Source: Phycisphaerae bacterium (GTDB lineage: Bacteria > Planctomycetota > Phycisphaerae > Tepidisphaerales > Tepidisphaeraceae). From it: a stretch of DNA of 43,854 nucleotides. How positions within the stretch are numbered: the stretch's first letter is position 1; each line of letters opens with the position of its first letter. A program made the position numbers and the translations under genes. Shown piece by piece: positions 4,254 through 41,303 of this stretch. Location of the stretch: assembly GCA_025924315.1 (NCBI GenBank), contig JAICIO010000043.1:1-43854 (forward strand), in the 5' to 3' direction. The notes beneath the pieces are model-generated. The model was given only the letters and a program-made list of their open reading frames with translations. It made no database searches and was not told the origin of the DNA.

Positions 4254-5672
4254 ATGGATCTGTTTCACGATTCGCGAAAGAGAAATCTCCAGCGCGTCGC
4301 GCCGCTCGCGGCGCGGATGCGGCCGCGTTCTTTGGATGAGTTCGTGGGGCAGCAGCATTTTCTGGGGCCGGGGAAGTTGCTGCGACGAATGCTGGAGGCG
4401 GATCGATTGACGTCCGTGATTTTTTACGGTCCGCCGGGGACGGGGAAGACGACGCTGGCGTCGCTGATTGCGCAGTACACCAAAAGTCATTTCGAACAGG
4501 TGAACGCCGCGGGGGTGGGCGTGAAGGAAGTGCGGGCGATTCTTGATTCCGCGAAGGAGCGGCTGGCGAATGGCGGACAGCGGACGGTTTTGTTCATCGA
4601 TGAGATTCATCGCTTTAATCGGGCGCAGCAGGATATTCTGCTGGGGGATGTTGAAGCCGGTTTGATTCTGCTTGTGGGGGCGACAACGGAGAATCCGTTC
4701 TTCGCGGTGAACTCGCCGCTGGTGAGTCGGAGTCAGATTTTTCAGTATTCGGCGCTCTCGGAAGACGACATTAAGACGCTGATCAAACGGGCGGCGGAGG
4801 ATAAGGAACGCGGGTTTGGGAACTTGAATTTGCAGATCGATGCGGACGCGATGGATCTGTGGGCGACGATGTCGGATGGGGATGCGCGGCGAGCGCTGAT
4901 GGCGCTGGAAGTCGCAGTTCTTTCGTTGCAAAAGGAGCGTGTGGCACAGCCGCCCTCGGCTGTGTCCGACGCGCGAGCGGAAGCACAGTCCCGACCGGTG
5001 GGGACTGTGCCACAAACGGCTCCGCTCATCCATATCACTTTGGATGTCGCTGAGCAGTCGATGCAGCGGAAGGCGATCGTTTATGACGGAACGGGCGACG
5101 AACATTACGATGCGGCGAGCGCGCTGATTAAATCGATGCGCGGAAGCGATCCGGACGCGGCGGTTTATTGGGTGGCGCGCATGCTCGAGGCCGGTGAAGA
5201 TCCGCGATTCATCGCGCGGCGGATTGCAATCCTGGCGAGCGAAGATATTGGAAACGCCGATCCGCGCGCGATCATGGTCGCCGCGGCGGCGTTTGATATC
5301 GTAGAGAAGATCGGGATGCCTGAAGCGCAGCTGACGCTGGGGCAGGCGGCGATTTATATGGCGCTGGCGCCGAAGAGCAACGCATCGGCGATGGCGATCT
5401 GGACCGCGATGTCAGACGTTAAAGAAGGCCGCACCCTCCCCGTTCCCAGACATTTGCGCGATACGCACTACAAGGGCTCGAAAAAGCTTGGACATGGCGA
5501 AGGCTATAAGTATGCTCACGACTACGAGGGCGGACACGTTGAGGAGGATTACCTCGGCGTGCCGAAGATCTATTACGAGCCGACGAATCGAGGCCTGGAG
5601 GCGGAGTTTCAGAAACGGCTCGAACAACTGCGAGGAGGCAGAAGCCAGGAGCCAGAAGCCAGAAGCCAGTAG
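4254..5672 (+). CDS. rarA: RarA/MgsA family replication-recombination AAA+ ATPase
   Basis: RarA (WHIP/Mgs1 family) is a clamp-loader-like AAA+ ATPase acting at stalled replication forks. From the ATG at 4254 it has 472 residues. It begins MDLFHDS, like its homologues. An ATG at 4245 is a possible alternative. Landmarks are RPRSLDEFVGQQHFLG, Walker A GPPGTGKTT (59-67), Walker B LFIDEIHRFN (113-122), the sensor region GATTENPFF (142-150), the lid motif SDGDARRAL (207-215), and the tetramerisation domain starting AEQSMQRKAIVYD (266-278). Two features are odd. Residues about 230-254 are encoded by a palindromic repeat pair inserted in frame between the lid and the tetramerisation domain. The last dozen residues (GGRSQEPEARSQ) are encoded by a second repeat. 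Both spots are tolerant linker or tail positions, so the enzyme is probably active. Confidence 0.95.
   Translation: MDLFHDSRKRNLQRVAPLAARMRPRSLDEFVGQQHFLGPGKLLRRMLEADRLTSVIFYGPPGTGKTTLASLIAQYTKSHFEQVNAAGVGVKEVRAILDSAKERLANGGQRTVLFIDEIHRFNRAQQDILLGDVEAGLILLVGATTENPFFAVNSPLVSRSQIFQYSALSEDDIKTLIKRAAEDKERGFGNLNLQIDADAMDLWATMSDGDARRALMALEVAVLSLQKERVAQPPSAVSDARAEAQSRPVGTVPQTAPLIHITLDVAEQSMQRKAIVYDGTGDEHYDAASALIKSMRGSDPDAAVYWVARMLEAGEDPRFIARRIAILASEDIGNADPRAIMVAAAAFDIVEKIGMPEAQLTLGQAAIYMALAPKSNASAMAIWTAMSDVKEGRTLPVPRHLRDTHYKGSKKLGHGEGYKYAHDYEGGHVEEDYLGVPKIYYEPTNRGLEAEFQKRLEQLRGGRSQEPEARSQ
4941..5013. repeat. REP-like inverted pair inside rarA (mosaic)
   Basis: The left unit (4941-4964) is GTGG plus stem CACAGCCG, loop CCCT, stem CGGCTGTG. 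The right unit, read on the other strand (5013-4984), is GTGG plus stem CACAGTCCC, an 8-nt loop, and stem GGGACTGTG. The outer GTGGCACAG and the closing CTGTG are shared while the hairpin cores differ, so two different units are paired. The pair is in frame in rarA and encodes about 25 residues. Confidence 0.85.
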
Positions 5673-5772
5673 AAGTAATACTGGTGATTGGTGATTGATG
5701 CATGACATCGCATCCATCACCAATCACCAATCACCACTTTCTTCTGGGTTCTGGCTTCTGGCTACTGGCTTC
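5638..5772. repeat. nested inverted element of 7-nt tandem repeats
   Basis: The outer left arm has four heptamers of the AGAAGCC type (5640-5667). The outer right arm has four heptamers of the CTTCTGG type (5741-5768), their complement. Nested inside are TGGTGAT heptamers (5682-5700) and three ATCACCA heptamers (5716-5736), again complementary. The whole forms a long imperfect hairpin that fills the rarA/formyl-THF ligase gap and supplies the rarA stop codon and last residues. Confidence 0.85.
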
Positions 5773-5782
5773 AGACTAAAGC

Positions 5783-8329: not shown

Positions 8330-9970
8330 TCAGTGCCGCTCTTCTTCGCACTGCTTCAGCATTTCGCGCGCCATGGCATCGTCGGGATTGATCTGCAACG
8401 CCTGTTCCAACAGCCGGATTGCGTCGTCAATCCTCCCCTGCTGCTTTCGAAGGAAGCCGAGATAGATGAGGGCTGGCGGACTGCGCGGCTGGAGGCGCAG
8501 CGCTTCCGTCAGCTGCGCATCGGCTTCGGACAATTGCCCGGTTTGCAGCAGGCAATACCCGAGCCGCCAGTGGATTTCGTCGTCGTCGGGCCAACCTTTG
8601 AGCGTCTCGCGGAGTTGCGCGATGGCTTCGTCGTGTCGCCCGGCGTCCCAGAGCGCGTGCGCGAGGATCGCATGCAGCTGCGGATCGCCGCCGACGTTTT
8701 TCATCGACGAAACGAGCAAGGTTTCGGGCGTAGACCAGACCATCACCTGCGTGAACGTGAGCACGCTGAGAAGAAGCAGGATTAGCGCCGAGCCGATCCC
8801 AATCGCGAAACGATGCGGTTTCGCGGGCAGCAGATCGAGCACGAGCCAAACGATCGCGATACTCAGGCCGATGCTCGGCAGGTAACTGTACCGATCGGCC
8901 ATCGCCTGCAATCCGATCTGAATGATCCCGATGACCGGCAGGAGCATCACCGTGAACCAGGCGAATCCAACGAATAGCGCGCGCTGGTTTCGCGCTCGCA
9001 AAAGCACGATCGCCGTGATGAGAAGCAGCGCAATGGTTGCAGAAGCAATCAAAACAGGCGGCCAGGAATTTGGACGCGGATAGACGATGCTCAGCTCGCT
9101 CGGCCAGGCGAAAACGCCGACATAACGGACGAGCGAGAGGACAGCGTTTTCGACGCGCGCGGTGAGCGAGAATTGCCCCTGCACCGCTCCGCCTCTCACT
9201 TGCGTCAGCCACGCAATGACCGCGAAGAAAATCGCGAGAATCGCGAGGGGAACTTTTTCGAGGATCAGGCGCTTGAGGTTCGATCTGCCCAGCGGCCAGT
9301 AATCCAACAGAAGCAGAATGATCGGCAGCGTGACGAGCATCGGTTTGCTGAGCAGGCCGAGAAGGAACATCCCGACGACGAGCAGATACTTCCCCGGGCT
9401 TGGCGATTTCGCGTACTGCGCGTAGGCGATCAGGCAGAGCATGAAGAAGAGCGCGCTCAGGACGTCCTTGCGCTCGGAGATCCAATCGACCGATTCGACG
9501 TGCTGTGGGTGCAGCGCAAAGACGGCGGCGATGAAGGCGCTGGGCCATGTGCGGCCCGTGAGCATGCGCATGGCGATGAACAGGAGCACGCTGCTCGTGA
9601 CATGCAGGAGCACGTTGACGAGATGCTGCCACATCGCGTTGAGGCCGAAGAATTGCACATCGGCCATGTGCGTGAGGGTCGTCAGCGGGTGGTACATCGA
9701 GACGTGCTGGTGTGTGAACGCCCAGGCGATGTTCTGCCAGCTCAGGCCGGCGAGCACGTGCACGTTTTGCGTGACGTACCAGTCGTCGTCCATCAGGTTG
9801 AAGCCGGAGAAGAGCGATCCGCTGTAGACGATCAGGGTAGCGAGCGCAAGCGCGATTGCGATGAGGATTGGGGTGCGGCGCTTCTCAACCCGCGCAATCG
9901 GAGAGGATTCGGGGATCCCCCCTTTCCGACTGGCCGGTTTTGTCCGCACACGTGGCATTCGCCCAAGCAT
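8330..9970 (-). CDS. GT-C-type membrane protein with C-terminal TPR repeats
   Basis: From the ATG at 9970 the protein has 546 residues, and an ATG at 9958 is possible. The open frame runs further upstream to 10243, but that part translates the repeat pair at 10065-10164 and is not credible coding sequence. After a basic cytoplasmic start there is a first helix, then the loop FNLMDDDWYVTQNVHV with the paired acidic residues typical of GT-C transferases, then HPLTTLTHMADVQFFG and HPQHVESVDWISERKDVLSALFF. These are hallmarks of the O-mannosyltransferase/TMTC-like TPR family. About ten membrane helices follow. The last 150 residues hold tetratricopeptide repeats, including PPALIYLGFLRKQQGRIDDA. 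The likely role is protein or surface glycosylation, with a periplasmic TPR domain. Confidence 0.8.
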   Translation of the reverse strand: MLGRMPRVRTKPASRKGGIPESSPIARVEKRRTPILIAIALALATLIVYSGSLFSGFNLMDDDWYVTQNVHVLAGLSWQNIAWAFTHQHVSMYHPLTTLTHMADVQFFGLNAMWQHLVNVLLHVTSSVLLFIAMRMLTGRTWPSAFIAAVFALHPQHVESVDWISERKDVLSALFFMLCLIAYAQYAKSPSPGKYLLVVGMFLLGLLSKPMLVTLPIILLLLDYWPLGRSNLKRLILEKVPLAILAIFFAVIAWLTQVRGGAVQGQFSLTARVENAVLSLVRYVGVFAWPSELSIVYPRPNSWPPVLIASATIALLLITAIVLLRARNQRALFVGFAWFTVMLLPVIGIIQIGLQAMADRYSYLPSIGLSIAIVWLVLDLLPAKPHRFAIGIGSALILLLLSVLTFTQVMVWSTPETLLVSSMKNVGGDPQLHAILAHALWDAGRHDEAIAQLRETLKGWPDDDEIHWRLGYCLLQTGQLSEADAQLTEALRLQPRSPPALIYLGFLRKQQGRIDDAIRLLEQALQINPDDAMAREMLKQCEEERH

Positions 9971-19401: not shown

Positions 19402-20466
19402 CTACGGCCCCACCTGAAGCGGAAGCTGCACGACGATCGGGGGAAGCATAAAGACATCCATCGCGTTCCCCTCAAAGTCGGTCGGGTTGTTGTTGTCGTT
19501 GAACCCTTTGCCAACCATGAACACGTCGGCGGCCGGGATCTCCTTGATGTCGTCGGCGGTGTTCAACACACCGTCTCTTCCGGGGCTGATCTGAAAATCG
19601 TTGCCGGGTTGGAGTTCGTAAACGTTCGGCGCGACCACGCTGCCGAGGCGGTAATACTGTCCGTTCATCAGCGTCGCGTTCAGGCCCGGGAGCTTGTCGT
19701 CGGAAACAAGAATGTACGCTCCCGGAGCAATTGCCCCGTTGAACGGATCGGTGCCGGTGAACGTGGCAGTGTCGACGCCGAACGTTCCTGTCGTGCTGTC
19801 CTGGATGTGCACCCCGGTGAACAGTTTGGGATGCGCGCTGGCAATACCTGAATTAAAGGGAGCAGGTCCCGGCGTTGCGGGCGGATCAAAGTCTGTGCGA
19901 TCGAAGATCGGTTTCGTCTGCGATTGAATAGCGAGCACGTAAACTTCCGCGTAGCGCGCGACGCTGGCGGCAGGGCCAAAGGTGCCGTTGCTTTCGTCGG
20001 ACAGCTTGTAGCCCATCGGAATCCAGGCGAAGCGCGGGTCGGCGGTGTCGACGAAGTTGCCCTTGAGCCGATCCCAGCGACTGGGCGTTAACGTGCCAAG
20101 CCCATCGATCGCATGAACCTTCCCGTCCGCGAGCGCCGGCTTGGGGGCGGAATAGTCTGCGTAACTGCTGATATCGCCATATGGCGCCGGAATCGCCACC
20201 GGCACTCCATTGGCCGGGTTTGCGGGCACGCCGCCTTCGGACAACAGGTTCGCAATCACAATGCTTCCGGTTCGGCCGACCGTCACACCCGCGGAATCCG
20301 ACAAGCTCTCCTGCGTCTGACTGATCGCCACAGGAAAAATCGCCGCGATCATGATGAACCCGATGCCCAGCACAATGACGGCGAACATCACTTCCGCAAA
20401 CGAAAAACCGCGGCGCAACGTCATTCGCTTCGTGCCTTTGTGCCTGAGTGCCTTCGTGCCTTCCAT
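19402..20466 (-). CDS. GspI-like pseudopilin with repeat-encoded leader
   Basis: From the ATG at 20466 the protein has 354 residues, and an upstream AGAGGTGA supports this start. Alternatives are GTG at 20475 and ATG at 20424. The prepilin signature is RRG-FSFAEVMFAVIVLGIGFIM, with Glu at +5. The leader segment KALRHKGTK is encoded by an array of four 8-nt repeats. The mature part is Pro/Gly/Asp-rich with no recognisable catalytic motif. Its position directly after the H-like gene (one-base gap) and before the J-like gene argues for the I slot of a minor pseudopilin set. If translation begins at 20424 the leader is the normal short MTLRRG and the repeat lies in the 5' region. Confidence 0.72.
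   Translation of the reverse strand: MEGTKALRHKGTKRMTLRRGFSFAEVMFAVIVLGIGFIMIAAIFPVAISQTQESLSDSAGVTVGRTGSIVIANLLSEGGVPANPANGVPVAIPAPYGDISSYADYSAPKPALADGKVHAIDGLGTLTPSRWDRLKGNFVDTADPRFAWIPMGYKLSDESNGTFGPAASVARYAEVYVLAIQSQTKPIFDRTDFDPPATPGPAPFNSGIASAHPKLFTGVHIQDSTTGTFGVDTATFTGTDPFNGAIAPGAYILVSDDKLPGLNATLMNGQYYRLGSVVAPNVYELQPGNDFQISPGRDGVLNTADDIKEIPAADVFMVGKGFNDNNNPTDFEGNAMDVFMLPPIVVQLPLQVGP
20429..20460. repeat. four tandem 8-nt repeats (TTCGTGCC type)
   Basis: The copies are TTCGTGCC, TTTGTGCC, TGAGTGCC and TTCGTGCC in a row. This is the same octamer family as the inverted pair at 23292-23422, but only one arm is seen here. The array lies in the leader-peptide region of the I-like pseudopilin. 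Confidence 0.85.
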
Positions 20467-20467
20467 C

Positions 20468-21706
20468 TCATTCACCTCTCACCAGCGTGCCGTTGTAGCG
20501 GTTGACCGTCAGCAGCAGTGATTCGCTGTCGAGCCAGCTTTCCTCGGCGGCCTCGCCGGTCACGCTGGCTGTGGCGCCGTATTTTGAGATCGGCGCGAAC
20601 AAGTCGTTGTCCGTGAAGTCCTTGTCCTTGAACTCGCTCAGGTCGTAGAGCGCGACGCCCAGCTGCGTGTACAGCTGAGGATAAGTCGGCGTGTCGAGAT
20701 CCGCGGTCAGACCGATCTTCTGGCCCAGCGCGCTGGCCGCTCGAATGCCGTACGGAATACTGTCGAACCGTCCCTTGCCGTCGAACATGATGACGCCGGT
20801 CCGGACGTATCGATCCGTGATCGCCGGAGTAGTCTTTCCGCCCTTCGTGTCATTCACAAGCTGCACGCCGACGCCGACGGGAAGGAATTCCGATTCGGCA
20901 TCGATATCGAAGTCAATGAACTTCTGCTGAGCGCTCGCCCAGTAAGTCCCATTCGGCGGGCGAGTGTCAATGGTTGCGTCATGGTCCTTGATGCAGACAA
21001 ACTTCTGCACGATCAGCCGATTCTCCTTCGCCGGGATGGTGCCGTCTTTTGCCGGCCAAGTCTGAGTGGGATCGCCATCGGCCACGACTGCGATCACCTG
21101 CTGACCCACCAGGTAGTGCACCGTGGCTCCCGACCCGCTGAGCTTCCAGCCTTTGTAGTTGTCGAAGGTGTCCTCGGCCCCAACTGACGCCCCGTCGCGC
21201 TGCACGACAATGGTCATCGTGCTGCGGCCGGTGACGGGGTCGAGATAGAACGCCACGCCGGCATCGCGCTCGGTTTCAATCGCCCGTGCGCGGGCTCGGC
21301 CGAGCATGGCGGAGACGATGTTTTGCGCGCCGTCGATGCTTCGTCCACCCGTGATGAACTTGAACGCCGGCACCGCCATCGCGAGCAGCAGGACGATCAA
21401 CGCGATGACGATCAGCAGTTCGGTGAGGGTGAAGCCGTTCGGTGAAGAGAGGATCGAGGATCGAGGATTGAGGATGGCGACACAGGCATCATCGCTATTC
21501 TCCATCCTCCATTCGCCATTCTCTCCGCGCTCAAGCGCAGGGCGGGCTGCAGACAGCTGAACGCTGGCGTGTGCCCCTCCGATAATGGCGCCGGGCAAAC
21601 TTCCGGTAGCCCGGCCAGCACCAGCGCACTTCCGCTGACTGCCGCCCGCCCCGCGCTCGATCCGCGGCTCGCATTCGATTGTCGCGTTGCTCGGCTTCAT
21701 GGTCAT
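20468..21706 (-). CDS. GspH-like pseudopilin with long repeat-containing leader
   Basis: The open frame has 412 residues. The prepilin signature G-FTLTELLIVIALIVLLLAMAVPA is at about residue 92, far further in than normal. The preceding stretch contains ENGEWRMENS and ILNPRSSIL, which are translations of the heptamer repeat pair at 21449-21524. The ATG at 21706 overlaps the upstream stop (ATGA), which supports translational coupling from there. A downstream start closer to the cleavage site cannot be excluded. The helix is followed by a GspH-like pattern (GGRSIDGAQNIVSAMLGRARARAIE, then beta-rich sequence). The C-terminus overlaps the ribosome-binding region of the I-like gene. Confidence 0.75.
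   Translation of the reverse strand: MTMKPSNATIECEPRIERGAGGSQRKCAGAGRATGSLPGAIIGGAHASVQLSAARPALERGENGEWRMENSDDACVAILNPRSSILSSPNGFTLTELLIVIALIVLLLAMAVPAFKFITGGRSIDGAQNIVSAMLGRARARAIETERDAGVAFYLDPVTGRSTMTIVVQRDGASVGAEDTFDNYKGWKLSGSGATVHYLVGQQVIAVVADGDPTQTWPAKDGTIPAKENRLIVQKFVCIKDHDATIDTRPPNGTYWASAQQKFIDFDIDAESEFLPVGVGVQLVNDTKGGKTTPAITDRYVRTGVIMFDGKGRFDSIPYGIRAASALGQKIGLTADLDTPTYPQLYTQLGVALYDLSEFKDKDFTDNDLFAPISKYGATASVTGEAAEESWLDSESLLLTVNRYNGTLVRGE
21449..21524. repeat. paired arrays of four 7-nt repeats
   Basis: The left array is GAGGATC, GAGGATC, GAGGATT, GAGGATG (21449-21476). The right array is ATTCTCC, ATCCTCC, ATTCGCC, ATTCTCT (21497-21524). The arrays are of two different heptamer families that are partly complementary through the shared GAGGAT/ATCCTC core. 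The whole element is within the leader-coding part of the H-like pseudopilin. Confidence 0.85.
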
Positions 21707-22539
21707 TGCTCAAAGGAGTACAGGTTGTCCATCGGCGATTGGAAATTTCCATCCGGCCCCGCGGAAGCAAAGAACGGCCGGCCGTCGGGGGACGTGACCG
21801 TCCCAGTGAACGACGGAGGCATCTGCTCCCAATCGTCGCCCGCAGCCGCCGTCACCCCTTTACTGCCTCGCAGGTTGCGGAAATACGGCCCGCCGGCAGC
21901 GCCGACGACTTCCCCCACCGCGTACTGCTTGGCGCCGTCATACGCGAACGCGACCTGCAGCCCGGCGGGCGGAACGAAGATGATGGGGTTATTCCAGGCG
22001 TCGACGAGAATCGGCGCATCGGGGTGGCCGTGCTCAGGCGGCGTGGGCATCTGCTCGGAGACGGTCAGGAGCTTCGGGGTCTTGGGGGGAGCATACTGGC
22101 CGTACGCGAGTCCACCGGCCTGCGGCCGGAGCAATCGCTCCGGCGCCATCTTCGCGAGAAGCTGACGATTGTCTGGCATCGCCCGAAGCTTCGCCATTAC
22201 CTGCTGGGTCCTGAGCACCGCGGGCGCCAGAAAGCGTCCGTTGTTCTGAGGGATCGTTGTGCTGCTATCGTATGCGTCAACGGTTACGAGTTCGGGCGCG
22301 GGAATGGGGGCCGTGCTGTAGGTCGGGTAAATGCCGCCGAGCTGATTGGTCAGCGTGTCGCGGGTCTCGAGCTCCGCCATCATCGACCGGGCGTTCTGGA
22401 GGCCGATCTGGGTGGAATTGTTCTTGGTCGAGCCAACCATGTGCTTCAGCCCCAGAAGCAGCATGCCGGCCAAGATCACGATGATGCCAATTGCGATCAG
22501 TAACTCGATAGCAGTAAAGGCCTTGCGCTCACGAACCAC
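21703..22539 (-). CDS. GspG-like pseudopilin (A-FTAIE type)
   Basis: The protein has 278 residues. The start is GTG at 22539, chosen because GAGGAG lies 7-8 bases upstream. A short leader VVRERKA precedes FTAIELLIAIGIIVILAGMLLLG, with Ala at -1 and Glu at +5. The C-terminal half has the GspG-type markers VDAWNNPIIF and FFASAGPDGNFQSPMDNLYS, which resemble the major pseudopilin Ca-binding end. The gene is preceded by the 29-bp perfect inverted repeat and its stop overlaps the H-like start by four bases. It is longer than ordinary GspG (about 140 residues). Confidence 0.8.
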   Translation of the reverse strand: MVRERKAFTAIELLIAIGIIVILAGMLLLGLKHMVGSTKNNSTQIGLQNARSMMAELETRDTLTNQLGGIYPTYSTAPIPAPELVTVDAYDSSTTIPQNNGRFLAPAVLRTQQVMAKLRAMPDNRQLLAKMAPERLLRPQAGGLAYGQYAPPKTPKLLTVSEQMPTPPEHGHPDAPILVDAWNNPIIFVPPAGLQVAFAYDGAKQYAVGEVVGAAGGPYFRNLRGSKGVTAAAGDDWEQMPPSFTGTVTSPDGRPFFASAGPDGNFQSPMDNLYSFEQ

Positions 22540-22617
22540 GCGGGATCTCCTCGGCTGAAGATGTCGGATTATTCGCGATGTCCAGCGTTCTTAGAGCACA
22601 TTTGCAGGTTAAAGTTC

Positions 22618-22686
22618 GAACCCGCGGAGCTGCGCTCCGCCGCTAACTAGCCGGTATTTAGCGGCGGAGCGCAGCTCCGCGGGTTC
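22618..22686. repeat. perfect 29-bp inverted repeat with self-folding arms
   Basis: The arms 22618-22646 and 22658-22686 are exact reverse complements with an 11-base loop. Within each arm GCGGAGC and GCTCCGC flank a 3-nt loop, so each arm can also fold alone. It lies in the 145-base gap between two GspG-like genes of the same operon, and its right end overlaps the stop codon of the upstream gene. It could attenuate or protect the mRNA between them. Confidence 0.93.
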
Positions 22687-23362
22687 ACCTGGCGTCTTCC
22701 GGCGGCGCATTGACCGGCAGCGACTCGTAGCTGTACAGGTTGTCGTCGCGCGTGTGGTACTTCTGGTCCGGGCCGGCGCTGAAGAAAAATGGCGCATCTT
22801 TCGGCGCCTGCCCGACTTGTGGATTGCGCTGCGGGGCCATCCCAATCTGCGGATGCATCCCGGCCATGAACACGATCGGGTTGCCCCACGCGTCGTGCAG
22901 CGACGCATTGTTGTACATCGCCACGGGGAGCCGGCCGAAAAGGTTCTCCGATTGATCGTTCTTCGAAGAAGGATTGGTCGTGCCGAGCCGCGTGCGGGCA
23001 TCGTTCTTCAGCGCCGCGACGATCTCCTGGTTGTTCTTGCGGGCGTTGCGGGCCAGCGTCTCTTCGTCCGGTAACGGCGCGCCATCTTCAACCAGCGGCG
23101 TGACGACCGGCAGCTGGTCGTGGTTGTGCGCGAGATAGGCGTCGAGCTGGAGGCTGAGCTGCGCGAGCACTTCGCGCGAAAGCGTGTTGGCGGACCGATC
23201 GCGCACAAACCGCGCGAGGCTGACCATCAGCCCCAGCACAATGATGAGCACCGCGACGGTGGTCATCATTTCGATGAGGGTGAAGCCGGAAGAGGCACGG
23301 AGGCACGAGGGCACGGAGGCACGGAGTGGTGAACGGCAGGCAGAAGGATTCAGTGAATGCAC
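22685..23362 (-). CDS. GspG-like pseudopilin with repeat-encoded leader
   Basis: The protein has 225 residues. The start is GTG at 23362 with AGAGGA a few bases upstream. The leader SPLRASVPSCLRASS is largely the translation of an array of 8-nt repeats and includes a cysteine. Next comes G-FTLIEMMTTVAVLIIVLGLMV, the prepilin signature with Glu at +5. The body ends with the GspG-type markers HDAWGNPIVF and FFFSAGPDQKYHTRDDNLYSY, where the Asp-rich end would bind Ca2+ in classical GspG. It follows a 70-base gap that holds the other arm of the repeat. Confidence 0.8.
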   Translation of the reverse strand: MHSLNPSACRSPLRASVPSCLRASSGFTLIEMMTTVAVLIIVLGLMVSLARFVRDRSANTLSREVLAQLSLQLDAYLAHNHDQLPVVTPLVEDGAPLPDEETLARNARKNNQEIVAALKNDARTRLGTTNPSSKNDQSENLFGRLPVAMYNNASLHDAWGNPIVFMAGMHPQIGMAPQRNPQVGQAPKDAPFFFSAGPDQKYHTRDDNLYSYESLPVNAPPEDAR

Positions 23363-23422
23363 TTCATTCCTCTATGCCTCCGTCACCCCTCGGTGCCTTA
23401 GTGCCTTCGTGCCTCGGTGCCT
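23292..23422. repeat. inverted pair, each arm four 8-nt repeats
   Basis: The left arm is four octamers of GAGGCACG type (23292-23323). The right arm is four octamers CGGTGCCT, TAGTGCCT, TCGTGCCT, CGGTGCCT (23391-23422). The arms are complementary over about 40 bases with mismatches. The left arm encodes the leader peptide of a GspG-like pseudopilin, and the right arm lies in the gap upstream of it. Confidence 0.9.
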
Positions 23423-23432
23423 TCTGTAGCAA

Positions 23433-25571: not shown

Positions 25572-26849
25572 TTACTTCTTCGCACTCGGCGACGACACGC
25601 TTTGGATCAGGCTGATCATCGGTGCGAACAGCGCGACGACGATGAAGCCGACGATCACGCCCAGCACCACCACCATGACCGGTTCCAGAATCGAGATCAA
25701 CGAGCCGACCAGCACGTCCACGTCATTGTCGTAGTTGTCGGCAACCTTGATCAGCATCTTGTCGAGGTCGCCGGTTTCTTCGCCGACGTCCACCATGTTC
25801 ACCACGATCGCGTCGCAGACTTTCGTCGCGCGAAGCGGGTCGGCCATCGATTCGCCTTCGCGAATCGCGTCGTGCACTTTCGCGAGAGCGCGGCTGTAGA
25901 CTTCGTTGCCGCAGGTTTCCTTGGTGATGTTGATGGCGTCGAGAATCGGCACACCGGCGCTGATCAGCGTTCCCAGCGTACGCGTGAATCGCGCGATGGC
26001 GGTCTTGCCCAGGATGGCCCCGAGAATCGGGATCTTGAGCTTCACCATATCGACGAAATATTTCCCGCCTTCGCTGATGCGGATCAGCTTGATCAGCAGG
26101 ATGAGCGCAATCGGCGAGAAGAGCACGTAGGCCCAGCCATAATCCTGTGCAAACCATCGACTGATGACCAGCAGCAGCTTCGTCACGCCCGGCAGTTCGG
26201 TCTTGAAGTCCTTAAAGATCGTTTCGAACTTCGGGATCACGAACACCATGATCATCGAGACGATACCGATGGCGATCGAGATGACGACGATCGGATAGAT
26301 CATCGCCCCGATCACCTTCTTCTTGAGCTTGGCAGCCTTTTCCATGAAGTCGGCCAAGCGCGAGAGGATGATGTCGAGCACACCGCCGGCCTCACCGGCG
26401 TTGATCATGTTCACGTAGAGCTTGTCGAATGCTTTGGGATAGTTGGCCATCGCGTCGGAGAGCGTTCCACCGCCTTCGACTTCGTCCGCCACGCCACCGA
26501 TGATTGCTTTGAGCAGGCCGGGCTTCTGCTGTTGCTCGAGAATCTGCAGCGAGCGCAAGATCGGCAAGCCGGCGTCCTGAAGCGTCGAAAGCTGACGCGT
26601 AAAACCCACCAACTGCTTTCGCGGAACGCCGCCGATCGAAATCGGCATCTTGCGCTTCGGCGTCAGCACCGTCTCGTCGGCTTCCTTCTTCTTGCTGGCT
26701 TTCTTTTTTCCCGCTTTTTCGCGGACTTTGGTGGGAAAATAGCCCTTTCCGCGGATCTTGGCGATCGCCTCTTCCGAACTGGTTGCCTCGACTTCGTCTT
26801 TAACTTCCTGGCCCGAAGAATTCATCGCCTCGTATGCGTACATGGGCAT
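25572..26849 (-). CDS. gspF: GspF/PilC inner-membrane platform protein
   Basis: The protein has 425 residues, the usual GspF length. It has the N-terminal MYAYEAMNSSGQEVKDEVEA segment, a Lys-rich linker (GKKKASKKKEAD), and two GspF domains. The first carries FTRQLSTLQDAGLPILRSL and the second FTRTLGTLISAGVPILDAI. Each is followed by membrane helices (KKKVIGAMIYPIVVISIAIG, then the C-terminal VVVLGVIVGFIVVALFAPM). GspF couples the cytoplasmic ATPase to pseudopilus assembly. The ATG at 26849 is preceded by GGAG about eight bases away. It is the first gene of the minus-strand pseudopilin operon. Confidence 0.95.
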   Translation of the reverse strand: MPMYAYEAMNSSGQEVKDEVEATSSEEAIAKIRGKGYFPTKVREKAGKKKASKKKEADETVLTPKRKMPISIGGVPRKQLVGFTRQLSTLQDAGLPILRSLQILEQQQKPGLLKAIIGGVADEVEGGGTLSDAMANYPKAFDKLYVNMINAGEAGGVLDIILSRLADFMEKAAKLKKKVIGAMIYPIVVISIAIGIVSMIMVFVIPKFETIFKDFKTELPGVTKLLLVISRWFAQDYGWAYVLFSPIALILLIKLIRISEGGKYFVDMVKLKIPILGAILGKTAIARFTRTLGTLISAGVPILDAINITKETCGNEVYSRALAKVHDAIREGESMADPLRATKVCDAIVVNMVDVGEETGDLDKMLIKVADNYDNDVDVLVGSLISILEPVMVVVLGVIVGFIVVALFAPMISLIQSVSSPSAKK

Positions 26850-36144: not shown

Positions 36145-36216
36145 TTGCGATTGAAGCCGAAGTCAGAAGTTAATCCGACTTCGGCTTCAATCGCAAATCG
36201 CAAATCGAAATTCGCA
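36121..36216. repeat. inverted element with 7-nt repeats flanking an 18-bp perfect stem
   Basis: The inner arms 36147-36164 and 36177-36194 are perfect 18-base reverse complements with a 12-base loop. Outside them lie heptamers of AATCGCA type (four copies, 36189-36216) and the complementary TTTCCGA/TTTGCAA-type series on the left. The element fills the gap between gspE and the GT-C gene and contains that gene's TTG start. Confidence 0.85.
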
Positions 36217-36224
36217 AATCCCGG

Positions 36225-38168
36225 TCACTCTTCCATGATCGTTTCGCGGACGACTTCTTCGATCGTGCTGATGCCGTCGAAGATCGCCATGAGGCCGGAC
36301 TGGCGCAGCGTGCGCATGCCGCGCTTCTTCGCTTCGGCACGCAGGACCTGCGTGCTGGCGTGCTTCACGATGAGGTCGCGCATGTCATCGTCGAGCAGCA
36401 TGATCTCATACAAGCCGAATCGCCCGCGGTAACCGGTGTTGTTGCACTGCTCGCAACCCTTGCCGTACCAGAACTTCTTTCCGGTGACGTCTTCGGGACG
36501 AAGCTCCAGCTCCATGAGCTGCTCTTCAGCGGGCGTGTACTCCGCCTTGCAGTTAAGGCAGATTTTGCGGACGAGTCGCTGAGCGACGATGCCTTCGAGC
36601 GTCGCGGTGACGAGGAACGGTTCGAGGCCAAGATCGAGCAATCGTGCGATGGCGCTCGGAGCGTCATTCGTGTGCAGCGTCGAGAACACCAGGTGACCCG
36701 TGAGCGACGCCTGCACGGCGATTTCGGCGGTTTCCTTATCGCGAATTTCACCGACGAGAATCGTGTCCGGGTCCTGACGCAGCATGCTACGCAGGATGCG
36801 GGCGAAGGTCAGTTCGATTTCCGGTTTGATCTGGCACTGAATGATGCCGTCGATGTCGTATTCGACCGGGTCTTCGGCGGTGATCAGCTTGCTGCTCACG
36901 TCGTTCAGTTCACGCAGCGCTGAGTAAAGCGTGGTGGTTTTGCCGGAACCGGTCGGGCCCGTGCAGATGACGATGCCGTTGGGGCGGTGAATGAGCTGGC
37001 GCATAACGTTGAGGTCATCGTCGCGCATGCCAAGCTTGTCGAGGTCCAGCTGCACGTTCGAGCGGTCGAGCACGCGCATCACGACGCTTTCGCCGAACAT
37101 CGTGGGAAGCACGCTGACGCGGAGGTCGATCGGCTGGTTGTTCACGTTCAGTTCAATACGACCGTCCTGCGGCATACGGCGCTCGGCGATGTCGAGGTTC
37201 GCCATGACTTTCACGCGCGACGCGATGGCCGGCGCGATGTGCGCGGGCGGCGGCATCATTTCGTACAGGATGCCGTCGATGCGGTAACGCATCTTGAATT
37301 CGTCTTCGAACGGCTCGAAGTGAATGTCGGATGCCTTGTCCTTGATTGCCTGCAGCAGCACGAGGTTGATCAGCTTGCGGACGGGATTGCTGTCGGCCGC
37401 TTCCTTCAGCGAGTCGAGGTCGATCGATTCGCCGCGGTTTTTCAGGTCCTTGAGCGCGTCGTCCTGCTGAAGCTCGCCGAGGATTTCCCCGAGGCCTTCC
37501 GCGGCGGTGTTGTAGTGCTTGTTGATGAGCTTATCGATCTGTTCCGGATCACCGATCTTGGCGGTGACGTTGTAACCCATCAGCGAGCGGAGGTCGTCCA
37601 GCGCGCGGAAGTTTTCCTGGTTCGCCATGACGACGGTCAGCTTGCGGGTGTTCTTGTCGAACTCGACCGGAAGCACTTTGTTGGTCGTCGCGATCTGCGC
37701 GGGGACGGCTTCGATCGCTTCCTTCGGAATGTTCACGCCGTCGAGATTGACCAGCTCGTAACCCTTCTGAGCGGCCAGCGCGATGTTGAGATCGGCTTCC
37801 TTGACATAACCGAGGTCGATGAGGATTCGGCCGAGGGCGCCACCCTTGGACTTTTGGAATGTGAGCGCTTCGACGACCTGCTCGCGGGTGACTTTGCCCA
37901 TCTTGGTCAGCACGCGACCGATGGGTCGGCCCTGGAGCTGATCGATCGGCGGCATGCCAGGCATTGTCGAGGGCGCAGCGGCCGGCGCGGGCGCGGCGCC
38001 ACCGGGAGTTTTAGTCGGAGGCGACGAGGCGCCGACGGACGGCGCTTTCGGCGGAGTCGCGCCCGGCTTGTTGGCCGGCATCCCCGGACCTTTCACGCCC
38101 TGCTGCTGCTTGCGCGGATCGGGCGCGCCGGAAGGATTAGAGCTCGGCGGTGGCGTGACTCGTGACAT
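36225..38168 (-). CDS. gspE: GspE/PilB-family assembly ATPase with Pro/Ala-rich N-terminal tail
   Basis: The protein has 647 residues. The first 72 are Pro/Ala/Gly-rich and presumably disordered. An MshEN/GSPII_E_N domain (about 80-165, with RPIGRVLTKMGKVTREQVVEAL) follows, then the N2 domain and the ATPase core. Core motifs are Walker A GPTGSGKTT (404-412), the Asp box AEDPVEYDIDG, Walker B LVGEIRD (471-477), and the His box STLHTND. Two CXXC pairs (ICLNC and CEQCNNTGYRGRFG) form the zinc-binding C-terminal module common in this family. It powers addition of pilin-like subunits. The ATG at 38168 has GAGGA six bases upstream. It is the last of three motor genes on this strand. Confidence 0.95.
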   Translation of the reverse strand: MSRVTPPPSSNPSGAPDPRKQQQGVKGPGMPANKPGATPPKAPSVGASSPPTKTPGGAAPAPAAAPSTMPGMPPIDQLQGRPIGRVLTKMGKVTREQVVEALTFQKSKGGALGRILIDLGYVKEADLNIALAAQKGYELVNLDGVNIPKEAIEAVPAQIATTNKVLPVEFDKNTRKLTVVMANQENFRALDDLRSLMGYNVTAKIGDPEQIDKLINKHYNTAAEGLGEILGELQQDDALKDLKNRGESIDLDSLKEAADSNPVRKLINLVLLQAIKDKASDIHFEPFEDEFKMRYRIDGILYEMMPPPAHIAPAIASRVKVMANLDIAERRMPQDGRIELNVNNQPIDLRVSVLPTMFGESVVMRVLDRSNVQLDLDKLGMRDDDLNVMRQLIHRPNGIVICTGPTGSGKTTTLYSALRELNDVSSKLITAEDPVEYDIDGIIQCQIKPEIELTFARILRSMLRQDPDTILVGEIRDKETAEIAVQASLTGHLVFSTLHTNDAPSAIARLLDLGLEPFLVTATLEGIVAQRLVRKICLNCKAEYTPAEEQLMELELRPEDVTGKKFWYGKGCEQCNNTGYRGRFGLYEIMLLDDDMRDLIVKHASTQVLRAEAKKRGMRTLRQSGLMAIFDGISTIEEVVRETIMEE

Positions 38169-38207
38169 GGGTGTCCTCGCTAAGTAGTTAACTCAACATT
38201 CACTTAC

Positions 38208-38255
38208 TGGTGATTGGTGATTGATGAATGACCATCAACCACCACGCATCAATCA
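38208..38255. repeat. heptamer repeat element between pilT and gspE
   Basis: TGGTGAT, TGGTGAT and TGATGAA (38208-38228) are followed directly by ACCATCA, ACCACCA, CGCATCA and ATCA (38231-38255), roughly their complement. It is the same heptamer family as the inner part of the element at 5638-5772. It ends seven bases before the stop codon of pilT. Confidence 0.75.
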
Positions 38256-38261
38256 GCCGGC

Positions 38262-39494
38262 TTACTTCTTGGCCGACATTGCCTTCATGCGTTCGCGATT
38301 GGCGGCGATTGCGGCGGCCTTGTCCGCGGCCGCACCGGCGGGTTGGCCCGGTTGAGCGGCCGCACCCGGCGTCGCACTGGCCTCGTCAGCTTCTGCCAGC
38401 AGCGCTTCGTCCGCGTTCTGCACCATATGGCCGGCCTTCTGCAGCTTGTCCACCATGAGACCCGGATTCTTGCTCTTGTCGATGCATTCCTCGGCGCTGA
38501 TGCGCCCGGCCTGGAAATGCATCCACAGGTTGTCATCGAGCAGCTGCATGCCGTACTTCTTACCGGTCTGAATATCCGAGTCGATACGGAAGCTCTTGTT
38601 CTCGCGGATCAGATTCTGAATCGACGGCGTGACGTACATGAACTCGTACGCGGCCACTCGCCCTTCCTGGTCGATGCGCGGGCAGAGCGTCTGCGAGAGC
38701 ACCGCGATCAGGTTGTTCGCCAGCTGCACGCGGATCTGTTCCTGCGAATCGGTCGGGAACGCGTCGATGATTCGATTGATCGTCGAAGCGGCACCCGAAG
38801 TGTGCAGCGTGCCGAACACCAAGTGACCGGTTTCAGCAGCGGTGATCGCGGCGCCGATCGTCGCGAGGTCGCGCATTTCGCCGACCAGCATGACGTCCGG
38901 GTCTTGTCGCAACGCGCGGCGGATGGCTTCCGAGAAACTCGGCACGTCCACGCCGATCTCGCGCTGCACCACGATGCTCTTCTTGTGGTTATGGTAGTAT
39001 TCGATCGGGTCTTCCATCGTGATGATGTGGCGATCGAAGTTGTCGTTGATGTAATTGATCATCGACGCGAGCGTTGTTGTCTTGCCGGAGCCGGTGGGGC
39101 CCGTCACAAGAAAGATGCCGCGTGGACGCCGGCAGATTTGCTCCGCCATCGCGGGCAGGCCGATCTGCTCAAACGTGAAAAACTTGCTGGGAATCAGTCG
39201 AAGCACCAGCGAGCAATTCCCCTTCTGCTTGAACACTGCGACGCGGAAACGCGCCTGATCGCCATAAGCGAAGCCGAAGTCGCCCGAGCCGGTTTCTTCG
39301 TATTCCTGCTGGATGCGCTCGGGGGTAATCGACTTCATCAGCGCGACGGTGTCTTCCGGCTCAAGCACCTTCGTCTGCAACTCGCGCAGCGCGCCGTGCA
39401 GTCGAAGTGTCGGCGGACGTCCCGTCGCCAGGTGCAAGTCCGACGCGCCCCGGCGAACCACAGTCTCGAGCAGTCGATCGATTTGAAGGCTCAT
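38262..39494 (-). CDS. pilT: PilT-family twitching/retraction ATPase
   Basis: The protein has 410 residues. The first 345 match PilT. These include the PAS-like N-terminal part with GASDLHLATGRPP, Walker A TGPTGSGKTTT (131-141), Asp box ITMEDPIEY, Walker B ALRQDPDVMLVGEMRD (194-209), the His box with GTLHTSGAASTINRIID, and the C-terminal LAEAD-type region. The last 60 residues are an Ala/Pro/Gln-rich tail absent from ordinary PilT. PilT disassembles type IV pili and is not part of a plain type II secretion system. It lies 30 bases from one assembly ATPase gene and 93 from the other. All three are probably co-transcribed. Confidence 0.94.
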   Translation of the reverse strand: MSLQIDRLLETVVRRGASDLHLATGRPPTLRLHGALRELQTKVLEPEDTVALMKSITPERIQQEYEETGSGDFGFAYGDQARFRVAVFKQKGNCSLVLRLIPSKFFTFEQIGLPAMAEQICRRPRGIFLVTGPTGSGKTTTLASMINYINDNFDRHIITMEDPIEYYHNHKKSIVVQREIGVDVPSFSEAIRRALRQDPDVMLVGEMRDLATIGAAITAAETGHLVFGTLHTSGAASTINRIIDAFPTDSQEQIRVQLANNLIAVLSQTLCPRIDQEGRVAAYEFMYVTPSIQNLIRENKSFRIDSDIQTGKKYGMQLLDDNLWMHFQAGRISAEECIDKSKNPGLMVDKLQKAGHMVQNADEALLAEADEASATPGAAAQPGQPAGAAADKAAAIAANRERMKAMSAKK

Positions 39495-39524: not shown

Positions 39525-41303
39525 CTAGCCCGTAATAATTCCTTCCACCTGCGCCACCTTCACCACTTCTTCCGCGGTTGTGGTTCCATTGAGAACCTTC
39601 AACCGGCCGTCGTGAATGAGGCTTCGCATGCCGCTGGCGAGTGCGGCTTTGCGGATCTTGTTGGTGGCCGCGCGCTCGAACGCGAGCGTGCGGATTTCGG
39701 TGTTCAGGTGCATCATTTCGAAGATGCCGACGCGTCCGCGGAAGCCGGTGCCCGTGCAGTAATCGCAGCCGCGCGGCTTGTAAATCGTGCGGTCTTTCAG
39801 ATCGTGCGGCGTGATGCCGGCAAGCTTCAGCCACATCGGATCCGGCTCGCGGTCCGGTTGCTTGCACTTGGGGCAGAGCACGCGAATGAGCCGCTGCGCG
39901 AGAATCGCCTGAATCGACGATGCGACGAGGAACGGCTTCACGCCCATGTCGATCAAGCGCGTGATGGCGCTCGGGGCGTCGTTCGTGTGAAGCGTGCTGA
40001 ACACCAGGTGACCGGTGAGGGCTGCCTGGATGGCGACCTCCGCCACTTCCAGGTCTCGAATTTCACCGACCAGAATGATGTTGGGCGCCTGACGCAGCAT
40101 GGCGCGAAGAATCTTCGCGAACGTCAGGCCGATGTTGTCGCGCACCTGGCACTGGTTGATACCGGGGAAGTTGTATTCGACCGGATCCTCAGCGGTGATG
40201 ATCTTGCGGTCGGGTCGATTTAGTTCGTTGAGCGCGCCGTACAGCGTCGTGGTTTTTCCCGAACCGGTCGGCCCGGTCACGAGGAAGATGCCGTTCGGAC
40301 GCTTAATAATCTTCTGGAACTGCTTGTAGTCCTCTTCCTCGAACCCGAGGTTTTGAATACCGATACGCACCGAGTCCGGACGCAGAATACGAAGCACGAC
40401 CGATTCGCCGTGATAGGCGGGCAGCGTGCTCACGCGGAAGTCCACCTGCGACTTATCTACGCTCAGCTTGATACGTCCGTCCTGCGGCAGGCGCTTCTCC
40501 GCGATGTCGATGCCCGCCATGATCTTCAGACGCGAAATGAGCGGGCCCTTCATGCGCAGCGGAATGCGGTCGCGCTCGACGCATTCGCCGTCGATGCGAT
40601 ACCGAACGCGCACGCGGTCCTTCATCGGCTCGATGTGAATATCCGAAGCGCGATTACGAACGGCTTCGGCGATCATCGCCTGCACGAGCTTGATGATCGG
40701 CGCCTGCGTGGCGTCGTTCTGGGCGTCTTCACCCATCCCGGTCACGTCGATCGATTTGTCGATCGAGCGGTCGAGTGATTTGTCCAGCGATTTATCCAGC
40801 GACTTGTCCATCGAATCGCGCAGGCGGTCGATGGTTCGGTCCATCGTCTTGTCGATCGTGTTGCTCGCCGTGGTGTTGAACATTTCGTCGAGGATCGTCT
40901 TGATACGTCCTTTCGGCGCGAGCACCGGACGGATTTCCTTGTTCAACCGGAAGCGAAGCACGTCCTGCATTTCCAGATCCAGCGGATCGTGGATCGCGAC
41001 CTTGAGCCGGCCGTTTTCCTGACCCAGTGGGAGGATCAGGTACTTTCGCATGATCTCGTCGGGAATGCTGTTGACGGCGTTGGGCGGAACGGAGTTCTTG
41101 TCGAGGTCGATGTAGTCCATGCTGTGCTGGGCGGCGAGCGCTTTGTACACGTTCGATTCGCTGCACAACTTCAGGTCGACCAGCGCCTCGCCGATGCGCA
41201 TCTTCTTCTGCTTGGCATGATCGAGACCTCTCTGGACTTCCTGAGCGCTTAGGATTCCAAGCTCAATCAGGATTTCCCCCAGTCGCTTCTGCTGTTTGGC
41301 CAT
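39525..41303 (-). CDS. second GspE/PilB-family assembly ATPase with DKSL-repeat linker
   Basis: The protein has 592 residues. The N-terminal MshEN domain (RLGEILIELGILSAQEVQRGL) is followed by a linker (about 150-186) made of tandem four-residue units of the DKSL/DRSI kind. The ATPase core has Walker A GPTGSGKTT (344-352), AEDPVEYNFPG, the Walker B region LVGEIRD, STLHTND and the zinc module CPKC...CDYCTGTGFRGRVG. The ATG at 41303 has GGGGA about eight bases upstream. It heads the motor operon (this gene, pilT, gspE). Having two assembly ATPases implies either two machines sharing GspF-type platforms or one machine with alternate motors. Confidence 0.94.
   Translation of the reverse strand: MAKQQKRLGEILIELGILSAQEVQRGLDHAKQKKMRIGEALVDLKLCSESNVYKALAAQHSMDYIDLDKNSVPPNAVNSIPDEIMRKYLILPLGQENGRLKVAIHDPLDLEMQDVLRFRLNKEIRPVLAPKGRIKTILDEMFNTTASNTIDKTMDRTIDRLRDSMDKSLDKSLDKSLDRSIDKSIDVTGMGEDAQNDATQAPIIKLVQAMIAEAVRNRASDIHIEPMKDRVRVRYRIDGECVERDRIPLRMKGPLISRLKIMAGIDIAEKRLPQDGRIKLSVDKSQVDFRVSTLPAYHGESVVLRILRPDSVRIGIQNLGFEEEDYKQFQKIIKRPNGIFLVTGPTGSGKTTTLYGALNELNRPDRKIITAEDPVEYNFPGINQCQVRDNIGLTFAKILRAMLRQAPNIILVGEIRDLEVAEVAIQAALTGHLVFSTLHTNDAPSAITRLIDMGVKPFLVASSIQAILAQRLIRVLCPKCKQPDREPDPMWLKLAGITPHDLKDRTIYKPRGCDYCTGTGFRGRVGIFEMMHLNTEIRTLAFERAATNKIRKAALASGMRSLIHDGRLKVLNGTTTAEEVVKVAQVEGIITG

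Follow-up and report, generated by a model that had tools for sequence, protein, structure and literature searches.

The stretch analysed here (the window, 43,854 nt) is a whole contig (C43, JAICIO010000043.1) of the Phycisphaerae bacterium assembly GCA_025924315.1, a genome of 6.57 Mb in 262 contigs. Its minus strand encodes a pilus/type II secretion-like operon in which three pseudopilin genes, labelled I-like, H-like and G-like from gene position and weak profile matches, carry arrays of heptamers or octamers in their leaders. The prepilin leader of type IV pilins is a cytoplasmic tail that is cut off by prepilin peptidase. A scan of the window confirms what a preliminary description had reported, namely that in each of the three genes the array sits immediately upstream of the prepilin cleavage site. 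The features concerned are:

19402..20475, minus strand: open reading frame (ORF) of the I-like (PilV/GspI-like) pseudopilin, weak TIGR02523 match
20407..20409, minus strand: Gly codon of the I-like cleavage site (G^FSFAEV)
20432..20463, minus strand: octamer array of the I-like leader (AGGCACGA-type), a single octamer arm and a partial copy
20464..20466, minus strand: likely ATG start of the I-like gene, 1 nt past the H-like stop, AGAGG upstream; leader MEGTKALRHKGTKRMTLRRG (20 residues)
20468..21706, minus strand: ORF of the H-like pseudopilin, profile match
21434..21436, minus strand: Gly codon of the H-like cleavage site (G^FTLTEL)
21444-21480 and 21499-21523, minus strand: heptamer array of the H-like leader, two inverted arms
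21440..21530, minus strand: complete heptamer hairpin element of the H-like gene, arms 21456-21480 and 21499-21523, both inside leader codons
21531..21660: second inverted repeat in the long form of the H-like leader, arms 21531-21561 and 21630-21660
22685..23362, minus strand: ORF of the G-like pseudopilin, profile match
23285..23287, minus strand: Gly codon of the G-like cleavage site (G^FTLIEM)
23292-23326, minus strand: octamer array of the G-like leader, inverted partner at 23392-23423
23285..23430, minus strand: octamer hairpin stretch of the G-like gene, covering the whole interval between the upstream stop and the cleavage site
23360..23362, minus strand: G-like start codon (GTG), within the element loop, GAGGA 6 nt upstream

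From array end to cleavage Gly codon the distance is 22 nt in the I-like, 9 nt in the H-like and 4 nt in the G-like gene. The G-like hairpin (~130-146 bp) contributes its 3' arm as the leader, with its 5' arm upstream of the start. Chance periodicity was rejected as the origin of such arrays: scanning 1.15 Mb of the genome (21-nt window, at least 17 matches at a given lag) returned 37 lag-7 and 5 lag-8 arrays, against none of either in a Markov shuffle. Other lags are populated as well (lag 10, n=22; lag 9, n=13).

Analysis of the available start codons reveals how far the arrays would be read as protein. The H-like gene has candidate starts at ATG 21706, ATG 21700, TTG 21598 and, inside the element, ATG 21505. 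Counting the Gly, its leader is 91 residues long from ATG 21706, in agreement with the length of about 91 proposed before, and 24 from ATG 21505. Past the second arm there is no further start codon before the cleavage site, and we therefore read the H-like array as protein. For the G-like gene the sole possible starts are GTG 23362, in the loop, and GTG 23314, within the array, from which translation may also begin. In relatives where the end of the H gene can be identified, the I start mostly lies 0-5 nt past the H stop; this recurrence favours ATG 20466, before the array, as the likely I-like start. The I-like leader of locus L105 consists of ATGAAG followed by a heptamer array, those two codons aside, with no other start.

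The arrays are not confined to this operon copy. Across the window and 21 loci of the family, a lag-7 or lag-8 array occurs in the 150 nt preceding the cleavage site at 25 of 125 pilin-like sites; the sites come from a regular expression and include a few false ones, such as one within a T2SSE gene of the window. A 150-nt control zone in the mature part holds no lag-7 or lag-8 array in the same loci. By lag, the counts are 20 at lag 7 and 9 at lag 8, and 0-2 at any other, the multiples 14 and 16 excepted. Forty further loci (5 of the family, 35 of the class) have arrays at 23 of 169 sites, distributed over 9 of the 40, and again none in the mature zone. We note that L081 and L138 overlap and that some genomes contribute two loci (G004, G008). 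Comparing the same operon in related genomes, as the preliminary description had advised, thus brings out many other heptamer and octamer families at the corresponding leader positions, many relatives without arrays at the corresponding genes, and one empty/filled pair of sister genomes. In G005 (L102) the H and I leaders both contain arrays, and an assembly artefact is unlikely there because the genome is a single contig. The H-like leader of L138 (G015), before position 9082, is a longer palindromic repeat of the ACAGACAGGAATGTCTGTC type, which the lag-7/8 scan missed.

Across phyla, a pattern joining one heptamer family to a pilin motif after it matched 7 contigs of a collection holding one genome per species (84,980 species): two of Gallionella, one gammaproteobacterium, one deltaproteobacterium, two Hydrogenedentota/Hydrogenedentes and one planctomycete. 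On six of the seven, the leader contains the array in frame. Because the pattern was built from a single heptamer family, this spread is a lower bound.

Reading frames and starts were counted over the window and 60 loci of family and class. Of 64 arrays in the 150-nt pre-cleavage zones, 4 contain a stop in the leader frame, compared with 15 and 14 in the other two frames (p=0.005), and 57 are open to the cleavage site. No ATG, GTG or TTG follows the array in 45 of these 57, and in 29 none occurs inside the array either. In 26 of 48 array-bearing genes, as opposed to 35 of 242 array-free ones, the nearest possible start is 20 or more codons upstream. Together with the positions, these open frames and available starts bear out the proposal that the leaders are encoded by repeat elements. 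Some observations weigh against translation of the arrays. Stops in frames 0, 1 and 2 number 42, 69 and 95 in the 242 array-free controls, so that openness of frame 0 near the cleavage site is partly expected in any leader. On one of the seven cross-phylum contigs (L184) both a stop and the probable start come after the array, which is therefore not translated, and in the window an ATG at 20424, after the I-like array, would give the leader MTLRRG and leave that array in the 5' untranslated region. The arrays might, on this ground, be untranslated 5' sequence throughout, with true starts downstream and ordinary short leaders. We regard this as very improbable, given that most open arrays have no start after them and that the H-like gene would require a non-standard one. 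Downstream starts in all three genes, the observation that the preliminary description named as contrary to its claim, are accordingly not what is found.

RNA folding reveals a marked difference between the three genes. The G-like element has a strong fold (-87.1 kcal/mol, z -9.0) and presents an SD-like GAGGA and the GTG in its loop, as would suit a hairpin over the start region that tunes pseudopilin translation, the leader peptide being a by-product. The H-like element (z -0.96) and the I-like array (z -1.33) fold no better than shuffles. Hairpin strength as a general cause was rejected on this result, and many relatives do without an array at the corresponding genes; a regulatory role is, in our view, improbable.

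The elements are multi-copy. Both are palindromic and hairpin-forming, with a weak fold in the H-like copy. Elsewhere in the genome, the heptamer element is present in full or in part at 9 sites and the octamer element, likewise in full or in part, at 7, the I-like array aside. Since the I- and G-like arrays belong to one octamer family, the three cases in the window are not clearly independent, and their description as three independent insertions is doubtful. Half of the 16 other copies (8) are called intergenic; the remaining 8 overlap called genes, and four of these lie well inside ORFs with domain matches. The heptamer element is in frame in a DUF58/VWA protein (L253 1616-2608, plus strand), and a full octamer element is in frame in a TPP/POR oxidoreductase (L247 137-4036, minus strand), by its inferred name of the indolepyruvate type. 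The other two are a LexA-like HTH-S24 protein, with the element in a linker, and a Y-family polymerase.

Orthologues were compared for the DUF58 and oxidoreductase cases, and in both the element is an in-frame insertion within a conserved protein gene that is missing from orthologues. In many DUF58 orthologues the match is interrupted where the element lies, and 16-21 residues are missing at its position in five aligned orthologues (the alignment recovered 6 of 12 loci). In the oxidoreductase, the loop in question is short in 4 and long in 8 of 12 aligned genomes. The long loops hold the octamer element in this genome, other heptamer or octamer arrays in L274, L278 and L279, and another repeat-like stretch in L277; no array was detected in those of L276 and L280, and L275 was not parsed. 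Refilling of one site by different repeats is therefore not special to leaders.

An in-frame gain is seen directly in the H genes of two sister genomes (G020:C352, L101, and G021:C570, L104). Both have the same Shine-Dalgarno sequence and the start ATGACC. The leader runs to 17 codons (51 nt) in L104 and to 44 codons (132 nt) in L101, and the difference is an 81-nt heptamer hairpin, in frame. A clear target duplication is not visible in this pair, which is too diverged. The I genes of the same two genomes, following ATGGAT, hold two unrelated heptamer families.

In other genomes, leaders seem to be copied from one paralogue to another as well. In G061 (L151; 6437, 8128 and 11345), three non-orthologous pilins of one operon have a nearly identical, repeat-rich leader block of ~130-170 nt up to the cleavage site. 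In G133, pilin leaders hold about 10 of the about 23 CCCGTCT clusters found genome-wide (counts merged by eye), those in leaders being without exception on the sense strand, and another leader sequence is common to several paralogues (read on the plus strand only, with 9 of 30 loci giving no result). Five contigs of this genome (L227, L234, L235, L239 and L243) begin ~35-115 nt before a pilin cleavage site with one leader in common, as if shared leaders had broken the assembly. Recombination between paralogous pilin genes, which have a conserved mature start, would copy one leader array to its neighbours and reduce the operon clusters to a few events. The two octamer cases in the window operon, set against seven other sites in the genome, fit such local spread. 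The I and G copies of the window, however, use opposite arms, the I copy is partial and the H element is of a different family, and in G020/G021 one leader carries two unrelated families. We consider local spread a possible but rather doubtful account, and one that can add to the insertion of dispersed repeats favoured below.

The preliminary description had offered either a targeting preference for the leaders or survivorship of insertions there. In this genome, the density of arrays per 10 kb is 3.75 in the 150-nt pre-cleavage zone, equal to the intergenic value (3.25), and 0.08 in coding interiors, as tolerance of insertions would predict. The corresponding values for pilin zone, intergenic and coding interior are 16.4, 7.6 and 0.03 in the family loci and 13.4, 3.5 and 0.16 in the class loci. 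Gene junctions, which rest on a home-made gene caller, hold an array in 4 of 53 pilin cases versus 23 of 424 others in this genome (p=0.53), in 22 of 106 versus 9 of 93 in the family and in 18 of 115 versus 12 of 146 in the class. Pooling family and class gives 40 of 221 versus 21 of 239 (p=0.004), and with length matched within each locus the 40 pilin junctions compare with 30.0 (sd 2.7) expected (p=0.0003); these tests treat related junctions as independent. From densities and junctions together, we conclude that tolerance explains most of the pattern and that a modest excess at pilin junctions is left.

That small excess and the sense-strand leader cluster in G133 go beyond pure survivorship and count against it as a full account. 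The excess would be expected if whatever moves the elements favoured the DNA of pilin cleavage sites or tight gene junctions, as would the 26 of 48 arrays whose ends lie no more than 15 nt from the cleavage codon. For this genome, a general preference for prepilin leaders was rejected, as 0 of 79 other prepilin-like leaders have an array. Targeting finds no other support here either, with a null junction test, in-frame copies in unrelated proteins and the same-site refilling of a non-pilin loop, and the marked clustering in G133 could be explained by paralogue exchange. What stands of it is the small excess across relatives and that clustering, and we hold a site-preferring insertion to be unlikely.

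We consider it likely, in sum, that dispersed hairpin repeats with heptamer or octamer arms were inserted in the operon and survive in frame where the coding sequence is permissive. As neither 7 nor 8 is divisible by 3, an array passes through all three reading frames; an arm built from a stop-free unit would stay open in any phase, and only total length modulo 3 would count. Since the leader is removed by prepilin peptidase, nearly any open and not too hydrophobic peptide up to the cleavage site should be tolerated, and leaders would thus act like intergenic DNA and gather repeats, and the same would hold for loops and linkers in certain other proteins encoded here. Array position, open frames, the lack of other starts, the in-frame gain between sister genomes and the copies elsewhere are shown by sequence; from these we infer that array leaders are translated, cleaved and neutral, and they are probably harmless passengers. 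A bolder possibility, which we put forward tentatively, is that the elements are portable 5' cassettes: the loop would provide a ribosome-binding site and start codon and the 3' arm a complete leader, so that insertion or recombination would swap the whole start of a prepilin gene and the leaders and loops of this clade would keep being rewritten. If true, such cassettes would go on supplying new coding sequence, in this clade and in other phyla alike.

The surroundings identify the locus as a type II secretion/type IV pilus operon, with GspF/PilC and GspE-type ATPases near the pseudopilins. The operon listing comprises GspF, G-like pseudopilins, a small pilin, H-like, I-like and J-like genes and a very long K-like protein. 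Its further members, and the ATPase genes further along the window, are:

21703-22539, minus strand: small pilin
25572-26849, minus strand: T2SSF (GspF/PilC), by profile match, heading the operon listing
36225-37955, 38262-39494 and 39525-41303: GspE-type ATPases (T2SSE)

The prepilin cleavage/methylation motif scores above the Pfam cut-off in the H-like protein (23.6 versus 21.2); in the G-like protein it scores 20.8 in one profile search, just below the cut-off, and 23.5 in another, above it. The I-like protein has no Pfam match in the profile search, and a weak PilV match (TIGR02523). The genome has 85 prepilin-like matches and two Peptidase_A24 genes, candidate prepilin peptidases. Heptamer arrays also occupy gaps beside the ATPase genes (36187-36220 and 38204-38231). 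At 5632-5777, a heptamer hairpin of two unit families (CAGAAGC outer, AATCACC inner) overlaps the 3' end of a called gene (4254-5672), of which it is a possible C-terminal extension. A near-perfect hairpin between two pseudopilin genes (22618-22686; 32-nt arms 97% complementary, 5-nt loop, fold z -11.8) is a repeat type unlike the leader elements.

Array leaders matter in several ways: (I) the cut-off leader is a site with a clear reason for tolerance, (II) one gene, empty or filled by different repeat families across related species, forms a natural assay in which insertion, frame selection and spread can be counted, and (III) long pilin leaders that look like annotation artefacts may be real. 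Titles and abstract openings returned by searches on repeats in prepilin leaders, and on heptamer or palindromic repeats in this group, mention no repeats in prepilin leaders, which does not prove their absence from the literature. As far as these and the excerpts cited below go, in-frame hairpin repeats are already known from Rickettsia and other miniature inverted-repeat transposable elements (MITEs; PMC2229807), and the heptamer/octamer build and the concentration in prepilin leaders were not met.

Heptamer direct repeats of TAACTGA are described for Beggiatoaceae and others (PMC4679880, in excerpt) and other heptamers for Xanthomonas and Nostoc (PMC4692102, in excerpt). They resemble the present arrays in having seven-base units that are mostly intergenic and often close upstream of genes, but are direct repeats of one unit, whereas here inverted arms form hairpins, unit families are many and arms without stops are read in frame. 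Another class of dispersed hairpin repeats is REP/BIME with its RAYT transposases, to judge from parts of PMC2817692 and PMC3733652. YPAL/RU-2 and other MITEs are fused in frame, and in YPO1552 the repeat forms part of the N-terminal export signal (excerpts of PMC2229807). A repeat within an N-terminal signal is found here too; however, the site is a prepilin leader, there it is a Sec signal, and the elements here have inverted arms but show no clear target duplication in the one empty/filled pair.

The closest parallel in kind of element is with the Rickettsia palindromic elements (Ogata et al. 2000, as excerpted from the review PMC2229807), dispersed hairpin repeats found between genes and in frame in conserved protein genes. 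For gmk, the case tested, the insert-bearing product is both translated and active (same excerpts). The elements described here extend such selfish in-frame hairpin repeats, reviewed mainly for Rickettsia, to another bacterial group. They differ in their arms, imperfect heptamer or octamer arrays within elements of ~80 and 130-146 bp, and in having pilin leaders as a frequent site.

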